From Geobacter sp. FeAm09 (GTDB lineage Bacteria > Desulfobacterota > Desulfuromonadia > Geobacterales > Pseudopelobacteraceae), in assembly GCF_008330225.1 (NCBI RefSeq), contig NZ_CP042466.1, positions 1,622,501-1,686,500 of the forward strand: a stretch of 64,000 nucleotides of DNA, written 5' to 3'. Below, one piece after another: positions 42,840 through 51,449 of this stretch. A program made the translations under genes and the position numbers. A model generated the notes under the pieces. The model did not search any database. It had not been told where the DNA came from and worked only from the letters and a program-made list of their open reading frames with translations. Each line of letters starts with the position of its first letter. The first letter of the stretch is position 1.

Positions 42840-45332
42840 TCAGGCCAGGTCGCGCCGGCTGTGACGGCCGATATTTTCAGGTTTGACGCCCCAGATCTCC
42901 CGGGCATACTCGGCGATGGTGCGGTCGCTGGAGAATTTCCCCATGCCGGCCGTGTTGAGGATCGATGTGCGGGTCCATTCGTGGGGGTGGCGGTAGAGCC
43001 GGTCAACCTCGTCCTGGCAGGCGACATAGGAGGCGTAGTCGGCCAGGAGCAGGTAGGTGTCGTTGCCCAGCAGGCTATCCACAATCGGTTTGAACAGACC
43101 GGGTTCGCCCGGCGAGAACGTGCCGTCGGCGATCATGCCCAGGGCCTGCTGCAACTCCGGGTTGCGGGCATGATAGTCGCCGGGACGGTAGCCGGCCCGT
43201 TTCAGCCCCTCCACCTGTTCGGCGTTCATGCCGAAGATGAAGATGTTGTCGCGGCCGACCTCTTCCATGATCTCGATATTGGCGCCGTCCAGGGTGCCGA
43301 TGGTCAGGGCGCCGTTCAGGGCGTACTTCATGTTGCCGGTGCCGGACGCCTCGGTCCCCGCGGTGGAGATCTGCTCCGACAGGTCGGCTGCCGGGAAGAT
43401 GAGCTCTGCCAGGGAAACGCTGTAATTGGCCAGGAACACCACCTTGAGCAGGTCGTTGGCCGCCGGGTCGTTGTTGACCACCTCTCCCACGGCATTGATG
43501 AGGCGGATGATCAGTTTGGCCATGAAATAGGATGGCGCCGCCTTGCCGCTGAAGATGACCGTGCGGGGAGGGACGTTCAGGCCCGGATTGGCCCTGATGC
43601 GGTTATAGCGGGCGATGACGTGGAGCACGTTGAGCAGTTGCCGCTTGTATTCGTGCAGGCGCTTGGTCTGGCAGTCGAACAGGGAGTCGGGCGAGACCTG
43701 AATGCCGTTGTGCCGGTAGATGTAGTCCGCCAGCCTCCGTTTGTTGGCGCGTTTGACCTCCGCCCACTGCTGCTGAAAATCCCGGTCGTGGGCCATTGGC
43801 CGCAGTTTTTGCAGTTCATCCAGGTTGGTGACCCAGGCGTCGCCGATGGTGGACGAGATCAGGTCCGACAACCAGGGGTTGGCGTGTTTGAGCCAACGCC
43901 GCTGGGTGATGCCGTTGGTCTTGTTGTTGAAACGTTCCGGCCAGAGGGCGAAGAAGTCGCTGAACAGGTGATCTTTCAGGATGTCGCTGTGCAGTGCCGA
44001 CACGCCGTTGACGGAGTGGCTGCCGACGATGGCCAGATAGGCCATGCGGATATGTTTTTCCCCCTCTTCCCCCACAATTGACATGCGACGTAATCGGTCG
44101 CTGTCCCCGGGAAACCGGGCCCCCGCTTCCTTGAGGAAATGGTCGTTGATCAGGTAGACGATCTGCAGATGGCGCGGCAGGATGCCCTCCAGCATGCGCA
44201 CCGGCCATTTTTCCAGGGCCTCGGGCAGGATGGTGTGGTTGGTGTAGGCGAAGGTCTTCACGGAAAGATCCCAGGCCGTTTCCCAGGAGAGCATCTTCTC
44301 GTCCAGCAGGATGCGCATCAGTTCCGGGATGGCCAGGGTGGGGTGGGTGTCGTTGAGCTGGATCGCCACCCGTTCGGGCAGCAGGCCCAGGTCGTCGTGT
44401 TTCTTGGAGAAGCGGTAAAAGATGTCCTGCACGGTGGCCGACGCCAGAAAGTACTCCTGGCGCAGGCGCAACTCCTTCCCCTCGGCCATGTGGTCGGCCG
44501 GGTAGAGCACCTTGGAGATGTTTTCGGTCTTCATCTTGGATTCGACCGCGCCGACGTAGTTGCCCCGGTTGAAGGACTCCAGCTCGAATTCGCGGGTGGA
44601 TTTGGCGCTCCACAGGCGCATGGTGTTGACCGTTTCGTTGCCGTAGCCCGGCACCGGCACGTCGTAGGCCAGGGCCATGACGTCGTGGGTATCGACCCAC
44701 GAGTGGCGTATCTCCCCCGCCGGGCCGCTCGATTCAACGACCCGGCCTTCGTAGCGGATCTTGTGCAGATGCTCCTGACGGCCGAACTCCCAGGGGTTTT
44801 CGTAGCGGAGCCAGTTGTCCGGCAGTTCGTACTGGCCGCCGTCGATGATCTTCTGGAAGAACATGCCGTACTCGTAGCGGATGCCGTAGCCGTAGGCCGG
44901 CAGGCTCATGGTGGCCATGGAGTCGAGAAAACATGCCGCCAGTCGCCCCAGGCCGCCGTTGCCCAGGCCCGCGTCCCACTCGTTTCCGGCGATGTCCTCC
45001 AGGTCTATCCCCATCTCCATGAGGGCGTTTTCCCACTCATCCCTGATTCCCAGGTTGATCAGGCTGTTGCCCAGGCTGCGCCCCATCAGGAACTCCATGG
45101 AGATGTAATAGACCCGCTTGGCGTCATTGATGTAATAGGACTGCTGGGTGTCGAGCCAGCGTTCCGCCAGCATGTCCCGCACGGCAAAGGCCAGGGCCAG
45201 GTAGAGATCGGCCTTGGTGGCCGAGTACTTGTCCTTGACCAGGGTGTAGTGGAGATGCCGCATGAAGGAGCGCTGCAGGTCGGTTACGGTCGGTTTCCCC
45301 TCACCGGCAGAGGTCGTATGGTTTGCGTTCAT
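42840..45332 (-). CDS. glgP: Glycogen phosphorylase
   Basis: 830 residues, the standard size for glycogen/starch/maltodextrin phosphorylases. It releases glucose-1-phosphate from glycogen with PLP. Family motifs: YYISMEFLMGRSLGNSLINL, the N-terminal NGGLGRLAACFLDSMA, KTNGITQRRWLKHANPWL, and the PLP-lysine region GTEASGTGNMKYALNGALTI. It lies 16 bases upstream of rarA. No other glycogen gene is in the window. Confidence 0.97.
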   Translation of the reverse strand: MNANHTTSAGEGKPTVTDLQRSFMRHLHYTLVKDKYSATKADLYLALAFAVRDMLAERWLDTQQSYYINDAKRVYYISMEFLMGRSLGNSLINLGIRDEWENALMEMGIDLEDIAGNEWDAGLGNGGLGRLAACFLDSMATMSLPAYGYGIRYEYGMFFQKIIDGGQYELPDNWLRYENPWEFGRQEHLHKIRYEGRVVESSGPAGEIRHSWVDTHDVMALAYDVPVPGYGNETVNTMRLWSAKSTREFELESFNRGNYVGAVESKMKTENISKVLYPADHMAEGKELRLRQEYFLASATVQDIFYRFSKKHDDLGLLPERVAIQLNDTHPTLAIPELMRILLDEKMLSWETAWDLSVKTFAYTNHTILPEALEKWPVRMLEGILPRHLQIVYLINDHFLKEAGARFPGDSDRLRRMSIVGEEGEKHIRMAYLAIVGSHSVNGVSALHSDILKDHLFSDFFALWPERFNNKTNGITQRRWLKHANPWLSDLISSTIGDAWVTNLDELQKLRPMAHDRDFQQQWAEVKRANKRRLADYIYRHNGIQVSPDSLFDCQTKRLHEYKRQLLNVLHVIARYNRIRANPGLNVPPRTVIFSGKAAPSYFMAKLIIRLINAVGEVVNNDPAANDLLKVVFLANYSVSLAELIFPAADLSEQISTAGTEASGTGNMKYALNGALTIGTLDGANIEIMEEVGRDNIFIFGMNAEQVEGLKRAGYRPGDYHARNPELQQALGMIADGTFSPGEPGLFKPIVDSLLGNDTYLLLADYASYVACQDEVDRLYRHPHEWTRTSILNTAGMGKFSSDRTIAEYAREIWGVKPENIGRHSRRDLA

Positions 45333-45576
45333 GGGACCGGCCCTTCAGGTAACGTGATCGGGAACGACGACAAAAGTATATAGGCACATCTTCCCGAAAG
45401 CAAGGTTAGGTATGTTTAATGATGGTGGCCGGCAGGCGTGGACCGGGCGCTGTGCCGCTTAGGGGATCTCGTCGCCGGGGAGCGCCGTGCGGGAAAGAGG
45501 TTAATAAAGCGAGTTGTGTATACTGACTTGATTTTGAATTTTCTTAGTATATTTAGTAAATATGTACATTTTTTTA
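45333..45576. other. Intergenic region upstream of the riboswitch
   Basis: This 244-base stretch lies between the divergent glgP and exported-protein genes and turns AT-rich from about 45500, as expected for a promoter. TTGATT near 45528 and TATATT near 45548 could be promoter elements, but the spacing (14) is short, so I do not call them. No gene is evident. Confidence 0.45.
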
Positions 45577-45665
45577 CTCGAACGGGCAAAGTCAGGGCAA
45601 CCTGACGACGCAAAGCTACCTGTCCAATTCCCGTTGGATAGAGGGGCCGCCGAGGGAACATCCTG
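45577..45665 (+). ncRNA. GEMM-I-type cyclic dinucleotide riboswitch aptamer
   Basis: The conserved core of the GEMM-I class can be followed. P1 is CTCG (45577-45580) with CGAG (45651-45654). Next come GGGCAAA (45584-45590), hairpin GTCAGG-GCAA-CCTGAC (45591-45606) with a GNRA tetraloop, then GACGCAAAGC (45607-45616), a hallmark. The second arm is CTGTCC (45620-45625) with GGATAG (45636-45641). GEMM-I RNAs bind cyclic di-GMP or, in Geobacter relatives, 3',3'-cGAMP. I cannot tell the ligand from sequence alone. An intrinsic terminator follows at once, which would be the expression platform. Confidence 0.85.
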
Positions 45666-45670
45666 CGACG

Positions 45671-45705
45671 GGCCCGCCCTTAAATAAGGACGGGCCTTTT
45701 CTTTT
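45671..45705 (+). terminator. Intrinsic terminator of the riboswitch expression platform
   Basis: GGCCCGCCCTT (45671-45681) pairs with AAGGACGGGCC (45686-45696) with one wobble position, followed by TTTTCTTTT (45697-45705). It stands 164 bases before the start codon of the giant exported protein and right after the GEMM aptamer, so ligand binding probably decides readthrough. Confidence 0.88.
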
Positions 45706-45868
45706 GTGCAGCGTATCCCTGCCATGGTGACGGCATTCATGACGGCGGCCGCTGCCAAAGCGGCACGGGGCGGCCTTGATGGTGGGGCCTCGATCAGCGC
45801 GGTATTGGCATTGAAAACCATATCTGAAAAAATCGGAAACAACGTTCAATGGATTTATAGGGGGGAGC

Positions 45869-48800
45869 ATGCATACTGAAAATCAGCGTAGAAACTGGTT
45901 GCTAGCACGTATTGTATTCTTTTTGATGACGATGCTGGCTTGTTCGGGAGGGGCCTGGGCGGCAGGGACGTCGGGAACGCTTTCGTTCACTGCGGGTGAC
46001 GGCGATGTGCAATACTCCTTACAATCAACAACAAGAACTGTAGGAGGGCAAACATTTACGATCAGTGCTCTTCCCGGGAACGTTCTTGGCTACGATTCCA
46101 GCCAAGGCGCAGATGGCCTCTATGTTTATGATGGTGGTGCCAGCTCTGGCGTCAATGTAACCATTGCGGCACCGAATGGCTACGTGTTCGACATAGATTC
46201 ATTCAAGGCGTTGGCATCGGATACGGTAGTAAGCTATGTTCTGACGTATGGGAATGGATCGACTGCATCCGGTTCTCTGAATGGCGTCAGCACGAGCGGC
46301 CTGAGCACGCTCAGTCCGACGATAAGCGGCATTAAGCAGATCGTATTGAGTTCAGTGGATTATGCTGTTTTCCAGGATTTCGCCCTGAGCAATATACATC
46401 CGTTGACATTTGCAGTTACCTACAATGGCAATGGCAACACCGGGGGGGCTGTGCCGACGGATGCCACGGCCTACTCCAATGGCAGCACCGTTACGGTGTT
46501 GGGCAACACGGGCTCACTAACGCGTACCGGCTATACCTTCTATCGTTGGGATACCGTTTCTGGTGGTGGTGGCGCCCACTATGTCGGTGGGGATACCTTT
46601 TCCATATCGAGCGATACAACATTGTATGCTCAGTGGACCGCCAATCCCCCCAGCGCAACAACCGGGTCGGCGACGTCTGTGACGGCTACGGGGGCGACAC
46701 TGGGTGGAACGGTCAATGACAATGGGCTCGCTACAACGGTAACATTCGATTATGGCCTGACGACAGGGTATGGCACCAACGTTGCGGCAACAACAGGCGG
46801 AACGGTTGGCGCAGGCACGGGGAGTACCTCCGTCGGGTTGAGTTTATCGGGCCTTACGTGCAATACGCCGTATCACTTCCGGGCCAAGGCGGTCAATGCC
46901 GGTGGAACCACCTATGGGAGTGACGGTAACTTTACGACGACTGCCTGCGTGCCTGGCGCACCGACCATTGGTACAGCGACGGCGGGCAATGGCCAAGCCT
47001 CGGTGGTATTTTCCGCTCCGGGGTCGGACGGCGGGGCTGCTATCAGCGGTTACACGGTTACCTCCAACCCGGGCAGTAAGGTTGGCACCGGAACGACCAG
47101 CCCGATTACCGTGACGGGGCTGACCAATGGCACCGCTTACACCTTTACGGTGACGGCTACCAATAGCGTGGGGACAGGGGCTGCATCGGCGTCTTCCAGT
47201 AGTGTGACGCCCAAGGCAACTCAGGCCATCACCTTCGCCAATCCGGGCGCCCAGAACTTCGGCACCACCCCGACCCTGTCCGCCACCGCCGATTCCGGCC
47301 TGACCGTTACCTTCACCTCGTCCACCACCGGGGTATGCACCATCACCAGCGGCGGGACGCTCACCTTCCTCACCACCGGCACCTGCACCATCAACGCCGA
47401 TCAGGCGGGCAACGCCACCTATGCCGCCGCCACCACGGTCACCCAGCCCTTTGCCATCAATGCCGTGGCACCCGGCGCCCCCACCGGCGTAACGACCACG
47501 GTGAGCGACGGCCAGGCGACCGTCACCTTCAGCGCACCGGCCAGCAACGGTGGGGCGGCCATCACCGGCTATACCGTGGTTTCCACCCCGGCGGGCGGCA
47601 CCGACACCAACGCCGGAAGCACGGCACTTTCCCACGTGGTTACCGGGCTCGCCAACGGCACCGCCTACACCTTCACGGTCACGGCCACCAACGGCGCCGG
47701 TACCGGCTCCGCCTCGGCCGCCACCACCAGTGCCACCCCCAGGGGGAACCAGGCCATCACCTTCAATAACCCGGGCGCCCAGAATTTCGGCAGCGCTCTG
47801 ACGCTGAGCGCGACGACCAATGCGGCGGGCCAGACCGTTGCTTTCAGTTCCAGCACCACCGGTGTGTGCACCGTCAGCGGCACAACCGCCACCTTCGTGA
47901 TGGCGGGGACGTGTACGATCAAGGCAGACGCTGCCGCCACCTCCAGCTATCTGGCCGCACCGACAGTCACCCAGAGCTTCTCGGTCAACGCCGTGGTTCC
48001 CGGCGCCCCCACCATCACCTCTGTCACAGGAGGTATCGGCCAGGCCATGGTGGTATTCACCGCGCCCGCCAGTAACGGCGGGGCTGCCATAACCGGCTAT
48101 ACCGTCACCTCCAGCCCGGACAACCTGACGGCAACGGCACTCGGCAGCCCCATTACGCTGAACGGGGTCACCAACGGCACGGCTTACACCTTCACGGTCA
48201 CAGCTACCAACAGCGCGGGCACCGGCCCCGCCTCGGCCCCCTCCACAAGTTTCACCCCCAAGGGGATCCAGACCATCACCTTCGCTCAGCCTGCTGCCCA
48301 GAGTTTCGGCACCACGCCGACCCTGGCCGCCACCGCCTCCTCCGGCCTGACCGTCACCTTTACCTCCTCCACCACCGGCGTCTGCACCATCACCGGTGGA
48401 GGTGCGCTCACCTTTCTCACCACCGGCACCTGCACCATCAACGCCGCCCAGGCGGGCAACGCCGCCTATGTCGCCGCCGCGACCGTGACGTGGTCGTTCA
48501 ACGTGGCGGCCGTGGTGCCCGGTGCGCCCACCATCGGCAGTGCCTCGGCGGGCGACACCCTGGCTTCGGTGACCTTCACCGCCCCGGCCTTTACCGGCGG
48601 TTCTGCCGTCACCTCCTATACCGTTACCACCAACCCCGGCGGCCTCACGGCCACCGGCACCGCCAGCCCGATTACCGTCACCGGGCTCACCAACGGCACC
48701 GCCTACACCTTCACGGTGACGGCCACCAACAACGTCGGAACAGGGGCAGCCTCCGCAGCCTCCAGCAGCGTCACCCCCAATCCGGGCCCCGCCGTGGCCA

Positions 48801-50860
48801 GCGTCGCCGTTCCCGCCAACGGCACCTACAAGATCGGCGACAACCTGGACTTCACCATCATCTGGGACAGCGTCGCCACCGTTACCGGCACCCCGCGCAT
48901 GGCGCTGGTTATCGGCAGCAGCACGGTCTACGCCACCTATATGTCCGGCTCGGGCACCACCGCCACCCTGTTCCGCTACACCGTGACCGCCGGCCAGAGC
49001 GACAGCGACGGCATCACCGTCGGCGCCTTGACCCTCAACGGCGGCACCATCAGAAACAGCGCCAACAGCAACGCCACCCTGACCCTCACCGGTGTCGGAA
49101 ACACGTCCGGTGTATTGGTCGATACCACGGCGCCGACCCTGCCGGCAGTGAACATCGTGGTCAACAACCAGTCCGATCCGCACAAGATCGTGCTGACGTT
49201 CAATAAGGCCCTCAACGCCACCACCATCGGCGCCGCCTCTGCCTGGGCGGCAGCCGCCAACGGCGGCGCCCCGATCTACGCCATCGCCGGCGCGGCGTTG
49301 ACCGCCGCCAATCAGGTTACCCTGACCCTGGCTGCGGTAGACATCACCACTGCCGCCACCTTCATCACCGACAGCGCCGCCAACGCCCACCTCAGGATCA
49401 CGCCGCCCGCAACCCTGGCCGACAGCGTCGGCAACACCTACGCCGCCGGTCAGGTCACGGAATCCGGTGCCGCCCATATCCTGGACACCACCCCGCCGGT
49501 CCTCGCCAGTGTCGGCATCGGCGCTGCCACCAGCACCGGCGGCACCATGACGGCTATTGCCAGCGAGAAGGCCAAGGGGTACTGGATCGCCGTTGCCGGC
49601 GGCGCCACGGCCCCCGCCGTGGCCCAGGTCAAGGCGGGCGTCGCCTACGGCGGCGTCACGGTCGTGGCCGACGGCACCGGGGCACTGCCGGCGGGCAGTG
49701 CCGGCAGCATCGCCCTGAACGGTTTAGCGCCCAGCACCGTCTACGACATCTACCTGGTGGCCGAAGACGCAGCGGGCAACGCCACGGCTGCGGTCGCCAA
49801 GGCCGTCATTACCACGGGTGCGGCCCTGAAGGTCTCGACCCTGCCCGACGGGGCGGTCACCACCGACACCACCCTCAACGTCAGCGGCACGGCGGGCACC
49901 CCGGCCAACCTCAAGAGCCTCACCATCAACGGCACCAGCGTGGCGGTGGCGGCGGACGGCAGTTTCAGCTACCCGGTCCAACTGCTGGCCGGGGCCAATG
50001 CCATCACCGTCGTCGCCACCGACATCAGCGGCACCATTGCCACCGACAGCCGCACCATCACCCTGGACAGCAGCGCGCTCCACCTGGCGGTCGCCTATCC
50101 GCCGGACAACAAGGCGCTTATCCAGCAGTCCGTCACCGTCACCGGCTCCATCGCGGAACTGCTCGCCAGCGGCACCGCCAAGATCGCGGCCAAAGCCGAG
50201 GCCGCCACCGCCGCCGATCCAACCATGGTGGTCAGCTACAGCATCAACGACGGGACGCCCGGCACCGCCACCCTGACCGACGGGACCTATTCCTTCACCG
50301 TCGATCTCACCAGCGGCATGAACACCATCCAGATATCGGCGGCGAACGGGGCGGGCAAGACCGCCCAGGCCAAGCGCACGGTCACCTACCAGCCCGCGTT
50401 CTCCCTGACGGTCAGCGACCCGGCCAGCGACATCCGCACCCCCCAGACCTCCTACCTGCTGCAAGGGATCGTGGCGGACAACAGCGCACCGGTCACCGTC
50501 ACCATCACCATGGATGGCCAGACCTACACCCCCACGGTGGACAGCACCACCGGGGCCTTCCAGCAGCAGCTGACCTTCAGCGGCAGCAAGGTCTACCAGG
50601 TGAGCGTCACCGCCACCGACGGCAGCGCCACCCTTTCCGTGCCCCGCAACATCATCACCGTGGCCGGGGCCGGATCGGCCTTTACCATCGTGGACGCCCT
50701 CACGGCGTTGAAAGCGTCCGTGGGCCTCGTCACTCCGGACCAGAGCCAGATCCTCAGGCTGGATGTGGCCCCCATGGTGAGTGGCGTTTCCGTTGGTGAC
50801 GGTATGGTGGATATGGAAGACGTCATCATTGTCTTGCGCAAAGCGGTCGGACTACTCTAA
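45869..50860 (+). CDS. Giant exported multi-domain (FN3/Ig-like) protein with C-terminal dockerin-like module
   Basis: 1663 residues. The signal peptide ends near GGAWAAG. An N-terminal domain (about 27-180) is followed by an InlB-type repeat (about 184-258; NGNGNTGGAVPT to TTLYAQWTA). One fibronectin-III-like domain comes next, then about 3.5 tandem units (about 360-970), each an FN3 domain (PGAPTI...NGTAYTFTVTATN) plus an Ig-like domain (QAITFANPGAQNFG...TGTCTIN). Several bacterial Ig-like domains follow. The last 65 residues match dockerin-like repeats, with DVAPMVSGVSVGDGMVDMED as one calcium-loop half. No enzyme domain is seen. It is preceded by the GEMM riboswitch and followed after 34 bases by a cohesin-like lipoprotein gene. 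Adhesion or matrix function is inferred. Confidence 0.9.
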   Translation: MHTENQRRNWLLARIVFFLMTMLACSGGAWAAGTSGTLSFTAGDGDVQYSLQSTTRTVGGQTFTISALPGNVLGYDSSQGADGLYVYDGGASSGVNVTIAAPNGYVFDIDSFKALASDTVVSYVLTYGNGSTASGSLNGVSTSGLSTLSPTISGIKQIVLSSVDYAVFQDFALSNIHPLTFAVTYNGNGNTGGAVPTDATAYSNGSTVTVLGNTGSLTRTGYTFYRWDTVSGGGGAHYVGGDTFSISSDTTLYAQWTANPPSATTGSATSVTATGATLGGTVNDNGLATTVTFDYGLTTGYGTNVAATTGGTVGAGTGSTSVGLSLSGLTCNTPYHFRAKAVNAGGTTYGSDGNFTTTACVPGAPTIGTATAGNGQASVVFSAPGSDGGAAISGYTVTSNPGSKVGTGTTSPITVTGLTNGTAYTFTVTATNSVGTGAASASSSSVTPKATQAITFANPGAQNFGTTPTLSATADSGLTVTFTSSTTGVCTITSGGTLTFLTTGTCTINADQAGNATYAAATTVTQPFAINAVAPGAPTGVTTTVSDGQATVTFSAPASNGGAAITGYTVVSTPAGGTDTNAGSTALSHVVTGLANGTAYTFTVTATNGAGTGSASAATTSATPRGNQAITFNNPGAQNFGSALTLSATTNAAGQTVAFSSSTTGVCTVSGTTATFVMAGTCTIKADAAATSSYLAAPTVTQSFSVNAVVPGAPTITSVTGGIGQAMVVFTAPASNGGAAITGYTVTSSPDNLTATALGSPITLNGVTNGTAYTFTVTATNSAGTGPASAPSTSFTPKGIQTITFAQPAAQSFGTTPTLAATASSGLTVTFTSSTTGVCTITGGGALTFLTTGTCTINAAQAGNAAYVAAATVTWSFNVAAVVPGAPTIGSASAGDTLASVTFTAPAFTGGSAVTSYTVTTNPGGLTATGTASPITVTGLTNGTAYTFTVTATNNVGTGAASAASSSVTPNPGPAVASVAVPANGTYKIGDNLDFTIIWDSVATVTGTPRMALVIGSSTVYATYMSGSGTTATLFRYTVTAGQSDSDGITVGALTLNGGTIRNSANSNATLTLTGVGNTSGVLVDTTAPTLPAVNIVVNNQSDPHKIVLTFNKALNATTIGAASAWAAAANGGAPIYAIAGAALTAANQVTLTLAAVDITTAATFITDSAANAHLRITPPATLADSVGNTYAAGQVTESGAAHILDTTPPVLASVGIGAATSTGGTMTAIASEKAKGYWIAVAGGATAPAVAQVKAGVAYGGVTVVADGTGALPAGSAGSIALNGLAPSTVYDIYLVAEDAAGNATAAVAKAVITTGAALKVSTLPDGAVTTDTTLNVSGTAGTPANLKSLTINGTSVAVAADGSFSYPVQLLAGANAITVVATDISGTIATDSRTITLDSSALHLAVAYPPDNKALIQQSVTVTGSIAELLASGTAKIAAKAEAATAADPTMVVSYSINDGTPGTATLTDGTYSFTVDLTSGMNTIQISAANGAGKTAQAKRTVTYQPAFSLTVSDPASDIRTPQTSYLLQGIVADNSAPVTVTITMDGQTYTPTVDSTTGAFQQQLTFSGSKVYQVSVTATDGSATLSVPRNIITVAGAGSAFTIVDALTALKASVGLVTPDQSQILRLDVAPMVSGVSVGDGMVDMEDVIIVLRKAVGLL

Positions 50861-50894
50861 TCTATTCAACAATTATCCCAAGGAGGATTGCTCC

Positions 50895-51449
50895 ATGAAG
50901 ACCACCCTGAAACTCATCCTCGCCACCCTCACGCTCGCCGCCCTGTACGGCTGCGGAGGCGGCGGCAACGGCAGCAGCACCCCCACAGCGGTGGCCGACA
51001 GCTACGTCTTTCCCAGCGGCACGGCGACCATTACCTTCTCCGCCATGAGCACGGCCCAGCTGGCCGCGCCGGTCAGCGGCATCGACTTCACCGTCACCCT
51101 GCCCGCCGGCATGACCCCCACAACCGCCGGTGGCGCATCGGGGCAGATCGACAGCACGACCATCACCGCCGGCTCGGCCCTGACCGGCACCAACCTGGCC
51201 TTCGGCACCTATTCCGTATCCACGCGCAAGGCCCACCTCTCCATGGCCACCACCAGCAACAGCTACCGCTCCGGCGAGTTCCTGCGCCTGACCTGCACCG
51301 TGGCTTCCGGTACTTCCATCACCCTGGCGCAGTTCAAGGCCGCCAACGATCCGGTGACCATCATCAAGGCCGTGGGGTACGACAGCGCCACCGCCAGCAC
51401 GGTGGTGCTCACCGACAAGCTCAAAGTCACCATCGGAGCGCTGAAGTAA
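50895..51449 (+). CDS. Lipoprotein with cohesin-like domain
   Basis: 184 residues from the ATG at 50895, with AGGAGG 8 bases upstream. The lipobox (LAALYGC) lipidates a Cys in a GCGGGGNGSS linker. The remaining 150 residues are beta-rich, with SYVFPSGTATITFSAMSTAQ, GIDFTVTLPAGMTPTTAGGA, HLSMATTSNSYRSGEFLRLT and a final VVLTDKLKVTIGALK. This strand layout resembles cohesin domains. It directly follows a gene whose product ends in a dockerin-like module, which strengthens the idea of a binding pair. The cohesin call is by eye and not certain. Confidence 0.75.
   Translation: MKTTLKLILATLTLAALYGCGGGGNGSSTPTAVADSYVFPSGTATITFSAMSTAQLAAPVSGIDFTVTLPAGMTPTTAGGASGQIDSTTITAGSALTGTNLAFGTYSVSTRKAHLSMATTSNSYRSGEFLRLTCTVASGTSITLAQFKAANDPVTIIKAVGYDSATASTVVLTDKLKVTIGALK

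Follow-up and report, generated by a model that had tools for sequence, protein, structure and literature searches.

A probable c-di-GMP-I riboswitch with predicted OFF output ahead of a secreted-protein gene in Geobacter sp. FeAm09

The leader described here has its closest known counterparts in Vc2 of Vibrio cholerae (RF01051), in Cd1 of C. difficile and in the GEMM-Ib or 3',3'-cGAMP riboswitches (pilM, pgcA) of Geobacter, whose aptamer is homologous. Cd1 is an OFF switch in which the terminator and the ligand-bound aptamer coexist while the antiterminator takes bases of the binding pocket, and the pilM switch is described in the same source as an ON design with a terminator that overlaps the aptamer (PMC9262584). 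Expression of GEMM-Ib genes is reported to be lower without gacA, consistent with an ON output (PMC6456294). Position 18 is an A that touches the ligand in both solved aptamer types, and the solved cGAMP aptamer has A14 at the place equivalent to position 20; a c-di-GMP aptamer carrying the change G20A binds cGAMP (PMC7288161, PMC6274999). Base 20 points strongly, though not absolutely, to the ligand: the equivalent G of Cd1 was changed to A or C without large effect (PMC9262584), and in G. sulfurreducens a switch that senses both ligands has been reported (PMC6456294). Deducing regulation from base 20 alone also needs caution, since several genes predicted to be cGAMP-activated rose with c-di-GMP in a study of G. 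metallireducens (PMC12285248).

We compared these systems with a leader in a 64-kb stretch of the Geobacter sp. FeAm09 genome, referred to as the window. An earlier note, made from the sequence by eye, had proposed a GEMM-I aptamer joined to an intrinsic terminator as a transcriptional switch, to be checked with a covariance model and by inspection of the ligand-contacting positions. The aptamer is confirmed: RF01051 (c-di-GMP-I) matches 45575-45654 of the plus strand over model positions 1-87 with 59.5 bits against a cut-off of 35 (cmscan, E 4e-9), and this is the sole above-cut-off match in the whole 64-kb window. The elements named in that note, GGGCAAA, a GNRA-capped hairpin (a GCAA tetraloop capping P2), GACGCAAAGC and the terminator, are all present and had been correctly placed. 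RF03167 (c-di-GMP-I-GGC) and RF03168 (c-di-GMP-I-UAU) belong to the same clan and were rejected as the family of the window copy, which cmscan reports under RF01051. When folded, the leader 45575-45710 gave a z of -2.6 relative to dinucleotide shuffles, 3 of 200 of which were equally good.

In what we take to be the Vc2 numbering, mapped by hand, the pocket bases are G20 (45585), G21 (45586), C22 (45587), G45 (45610), C46 (45611), A47 (45612) and C92 (45650); C92 was assigned by hand and the others come from the cmscan alignment. The selectivity base, position 20, is a G immediately 5' of the first P1b pair; the J1/2 register may shift by one base, and position 20 is G in both registers. Compared with the contacts described in PMC7288161 and PMC6274999, G21-C46, C22-G45 and A47 are canonical, and the pocket set of G20, A47 and C92 plus G21-C46 is complete. 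The aptamer shares with Vc2 its fold, the GNRA-capped P2, G20, G21-C46 and A47, but differs from it in position 18 and in the downstream part and gene. Position 18 is a C (45583, plus strand, Rfam register), and the A18 contact is absent, which counts against the c-di-GMP reading. Because the window string that includes this base, ACGGGCAAA, recurs in 13 of the 88 aptamers examined outside the genus (mostly the best-scoring among the matches listed), C18 is, judging from the sequences compared, a common variant and not a sign of decay. Among 63 distinct aptamers of the GACGC/GACAC type, whose bases 18-22 were taken at fixed offsets (off by one in seven aptamers of the RF03167 kind), position 18 is not A in 18, so that A18 does not define the class, and position 20 is G in 61; 15 more aptamers belonged to neither type.

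A 15-nt linker (45655-45669, plus strand) separates the aptamer from an intrinsic terminator at 45670-45705, recognized from sequence and folding. It comprises a hairpin at 45670-45697 (GGGCCCGCCCTT-AAAT-AAGGACGGGCCT, -17.8 kcal/mol) and a U-tract, TTTCTTTT, at 45698-45705. The hairpin stands alone, and no overlapping terminator was found in the window leader. A simple terminator scan of 45330-45900 returned no sites, probably because the stem has an internal mismatch. The gap before the start codon exists as previously described, although we count 163 nt from the end of the U-tract to the ATG at 45869, rather than 164. Upstream, an AT-rich stretch (45517-45574, plus strand; GC 0.31 across 45500-45599) would have to contain the promoter if the leader is separately transcribed. 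We found no convincing -35/-10 in 45517-45574. A sigma-28-like pattern gave 0 hits, and a sigma-54-like pattern with up to two mismatches occurs 39 times in the window (51 expected) and not at all in the leader.

Folding of partial transcripts points to two competing structures. For a transcript that ends in the terminator loop, the minimum-energy fold is a predicted antiterminator (45643-45679, plus strand), with the linker as its central part, at -47.3 kcal/mol; leaving the arm unpaired gives -32.2 kcal/mol. It pairs 45643-45645 with 45673-45675, 45647-45649 with 45669-45671, 45651-45652 with 45666-45667 and 45654-45657 with 45661-45664, and in addition 45584-45587 (G19-C22) with 45676-45679. 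Once the 3' arm is complete, the terminator (-50.7 kcal/mol) and the antiterminator (-49.2 kcal/mol) lie no more than 1.5 kcal/mol apart. The native P1b pairs together with the terminator also give -50.7 kcal/mol, the same as the terminator alone, and so carry no cost in folding.

Because the bound aptamer and the terminator can coexist while the antiterminator takes pocket bases, the ligand would favour termination. From these computed elements (aptamer identity, pocket bases, terminator and the two competing folds) we infer the ligand, the direction of the response and termination itself, and consider it probable that the window leader is a G20 c-di-GMP-I riboswitch that binds c-di-GMP and acts as a transcriptional OFF switch. 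When c-di-GMP is scarce, the antiterminator would form from the 3' strand of the aptamer, the linker and the 5' arm of the terminator, with G19-C22 of the pocket also paired, and polymerase would continue into the genes for an fn3 protein and a cohesin-like lipoprotein. With c-di-GMP bound, the aptamer helices would be held and the terminator 5' arm left free, and the terminator would then form and end transcription upstream of the gene. The earlier description of the leader as a transcriptional switch is backed, as a prediction, by both the covariance model and the folding. The coexistence of terminator and bound aptamer, and a predicted antiterminator that draws on the 3' strand of the aptamer and on bases of its pocket, are Cd1-like; the window differs from Cd1 in that its antiterminator is predicted only and in the gene controlled.

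The antiterminator is a modelled prediction for the window locus and not a conserved covarying structure. Its fold gain was equalled in 47 of 1000 shuffles of linker plus arm and in 126 of 1000 shuffles of the linker only, which is a weak control. On its own, the terminator arm of the window copy did not outperform composition shuffles (fraction 0.35), and the expected pairs of linker plus arm with the aptamer 3' part were matched in 26 of 200 shuffles. Arm pairing across stand-alone loci was assessed in the 58 that passed distance, energy and type filters (56 distinct), with 51 in the permutation test; the antiterminator rule reached 0.05 or less in 5 of the 56 distinct loci. Own terminator arms had no pairing advantage over permuted ones and no cross-locus covariation was found, and a general antiterminator found no support, either between the terminator 5' arm and the aptamer 3' strand (permutation fraction 0.76, 51 loci) or between the terminator 3' arm and the P3 5' strand (0.52, 51 loci). 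Folding gave no antiterminator of the window type at L009, a locus of the same genome, or at L118.

The source genome (4.10 Mb, one contig) contains 18 RF01051 matches, among which the window copy scores fifth best; base 20 is G in nine, including the window copy, and A in the other nine. RF03167 is the best family for two of the other copies and RF03168 for one. The window copy groups with four relatives (L006-L009) that all share GACGCAAAGCYACCUGUCC, and the terminators of all five are stand-alone. Of these four relatives, one is followed by a gene for a HAMP-PAS-GGDEF protein that has the ordinary Asp, two by genes for methyl-accepting chemotaxis proteins, and one by CheY and then CheX; this set suits repression by c-di-GMP. 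The aptamer 3' strand doubles as the terminator 5' arm in eight of the nine A20 copies (L018 was scored otherwise), so that the ligand would block termination, the ON design known from pilM. These nine copies resemble GEMM-Ib, which combines A20 and C21-G46 with a terminator built from the 3' strand of the aptamer; the window copy has none of the three. Three tandem aptamer pairs also occur in this genome (L001/L004, L012/L014 and L011/L017), two of them A20 and one G20 with A45-U22. The window-type aptamer before the HAMP-PAS-GGDEF gene (L006; gene region G000:C1:965862-968136, L186) is followed by two terminator-like hairpins and may exert negative feedback on c-di-GMP.

Since base 20 is G rather than A and the terminator is stand-alone, c-di-GMP is, on these sequence features, a much likelier ligand than cGAMP. 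The same two features give no support to the hint at a cGAMP ligand in the earlier note, the terminator being unlike those of the A20 switches of the genome, and GEMM-Ib identity was rejected on finding G at position 20 instead of A. The cell may also make cGAMP, because three other GGDEF loci have Ser at the position that, presumably, marks Hypr enzymes (readable in 21 of 30 loci). These loci, together with the nine A20 aptamers and the tolerance of base 20 in Cd1, would fit a window switch that responds to cGAMP or to both ligands. We nevertheless regard such a switch as quite improbable, given G20, the stand-alone terminator and the orientation of the 21-46 pair, which is G-C in the window but C-G in all nine A20 copies of the genome and in the solved cGAMP aptamer (P2 C15-G40, PMC6274999).

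It is also unlikely that c-di-GMP turns the window switch on, its binding favouring read-through by way of some fold not seen in our analysis. The native aptamer pairs coexist with the terminator, and an overlapping terminator was not found in the leader, even if ON switches of the c-di-GMP-I class exist (examples are predicted in Desulfobacca acetoxidans, PMC9481103) and the antiterminator controls are weak. Expression of the gene from a promoter 3' of the terminator, with the aptamer uncoupled from it, would account for a sigma-70-like site (9/12) past the terminator at 45805-45833, where 0.4 are expected by chance, and a decayed aptamer is known elsewhere in the genome; yet the window copy retains its core bases and helices as well as its high score rank, and we hold this uncoupling to be very improbable. 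A c-di-GMP OFF switch is thus the preferred explanation.

The aptamer is flanked by a glycogen phosphorylase gene on the opposite strand (42840-45332, Pfam Phosphorylase) and by a plus-strand gene at 45869-50860, preceded by GGGGGGAG at 45860-45867. This second gene encodes a secreted protein of 1663 aa that matches fn3 and Glucodextran_B. The protein has four fn3 stretches, and its C-terminus, which has no Pfam match, resembles a dockerin when judged by eye. The next gene (50895-51449, plus strand), probably on the same transcript, encodes a 184-aa lipoprotein that has no Pfam match and a predicted cohesin-like fold (structure model pLDDT 88.9). The 26 best structural matches of the model are all cohesins or cohesin complexes, but the E-values are 3.9e-3 at best and the TM-scores are low. 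It is a fair guess that the two proteins form a surface pair of the cohesin-dockerin type.

No orthologue of the leader-gene pair or of the 1663-aa protein (query: its first 264 residues) was found in five other genomes of the genus. Positions 47740-51443 of the window are 94.9% identical over 3.7 kb to G000:C1:862385-866087 (L184 4386-8088, minus strand) of the same genome, a stretch that takes in the end of the fn3 gene and all of the lipoprotein gene. Given this copy and the lack of a counterpart in the genus for the first 264 residues, the operon looks young or rearranged, whereas the switch family does not. Upstream of the second copy lies a different gene, which has DUF4347 and TIG domains and overlaps the copy in a different frame. 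A decayed c-di-GMP-I aptamer with a terminator-like hairpin (L184 4157-4306, minus strand; G000:C1, about 862156-862305) directly follows the second copy and precedes a subtilase gene; 39 of 48 bases of this aptamer are as in the window copy. It scores 22.4 bits with RF03167 (cut-off 59) and is not among the 18 matches.

The orientation of the 21-46 pair and the terminator design go together across relatives. Within the genus (97 matches in six genomes, two of them below the Rfam cut-off), 22 of the 23 aptamers with G21 have a stand-alone terminator (one none, zero overlapping), and 70 of the 74 with C21 have an overlapping one (two none, two stand-alone). Among 88 matches from other genera of the order, mostly the best-scoring among those listed, the terminator is stand-alone for 54 of the 61 with G21 (six none, one overlapping) and overlapping for 23 of the 27 with C21 (three none, one stand-alone). 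Base 20 does not track terminator type: G20/C21 with an overlapping terminator was found 23 times in the genus and 19 times among the 88 outside, and A20/G21 with a stand-alone terminator four and six times, respectively. In 48 named loci, collected with a pattern that fixes C46, 45 terminators are stand-alone, two overlapping and one absent; a 49th, L035, whose aptamer is cut by the DNA end, was left out, as was the second aptamer in L053. The stand-alone label is generous, as it includes weak or distant hairpins (L093, L109, L110 and L018). The genus, order and named sets overlap partly and cannot be summed, and the loci are kin by descent rather than independent events, so the base 21 rule, as read from these sequences, describes two lineages.

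A possible, still tentative interpretation is that the orientation of the 21-46 pair marks, in Geobacterales, two lineages of opposite output (G-C, stand-alone and OFF; C-G, overlapping and ON), with the ligand choice at base 20 changing within each. No statement of this rule was found in the literature searched, which did not extend to the founding papers, and it may already be known. Candidates for cGAMP OFF switches (A20/G21, stand-alone) are L094, L095, L096 and L115, all in genome G005, and six outside the genus (two in G054 and one each in G056, G006, G047 and G012). Position 20 is U or C, neither the c-di-GMP nor the cGAMP base, in L143 (G004:C1:1617838-1617914), L024 and G009:C9:820-905. 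Besides Geobacterales, the aptamer core of the window copy was observed in Nitrospirae, Omnitrophota, Desulfobulbaceae and a single Halomonas record (49 named contigs, L019-L067), with varied genes downstream.

The window switch adds one case to the c-di-GMP-I class, with a ligand that is very probably c-di-GMP and an output that is probably OFF. The choice between c-di-GMP and cGAMP is settled as far as sequence permits in a group rich in both, and the sign of control is predicted. Of more interest is the lineage rule that emerged alongside, by which the 21-46 pair would allow ON or OFF to be predicted from the aptamer alone. If this rule is true, cGAMP would repress through A20/G21 aptamers with stand-alone terminators, a sign of control that we did not find described in the literature examined, and G20/C21 aptamers would be c-di-GMP-activated or dual. 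If the OFF assignment is true, c-di-GMP would shut off chemotaxis genes, a GGDEF gene and the secreted-protein operon of the window, and one genome would couple two related signals, through two related aptamers, to opposite outcomes: cGAMP on, c-di-GMP off.
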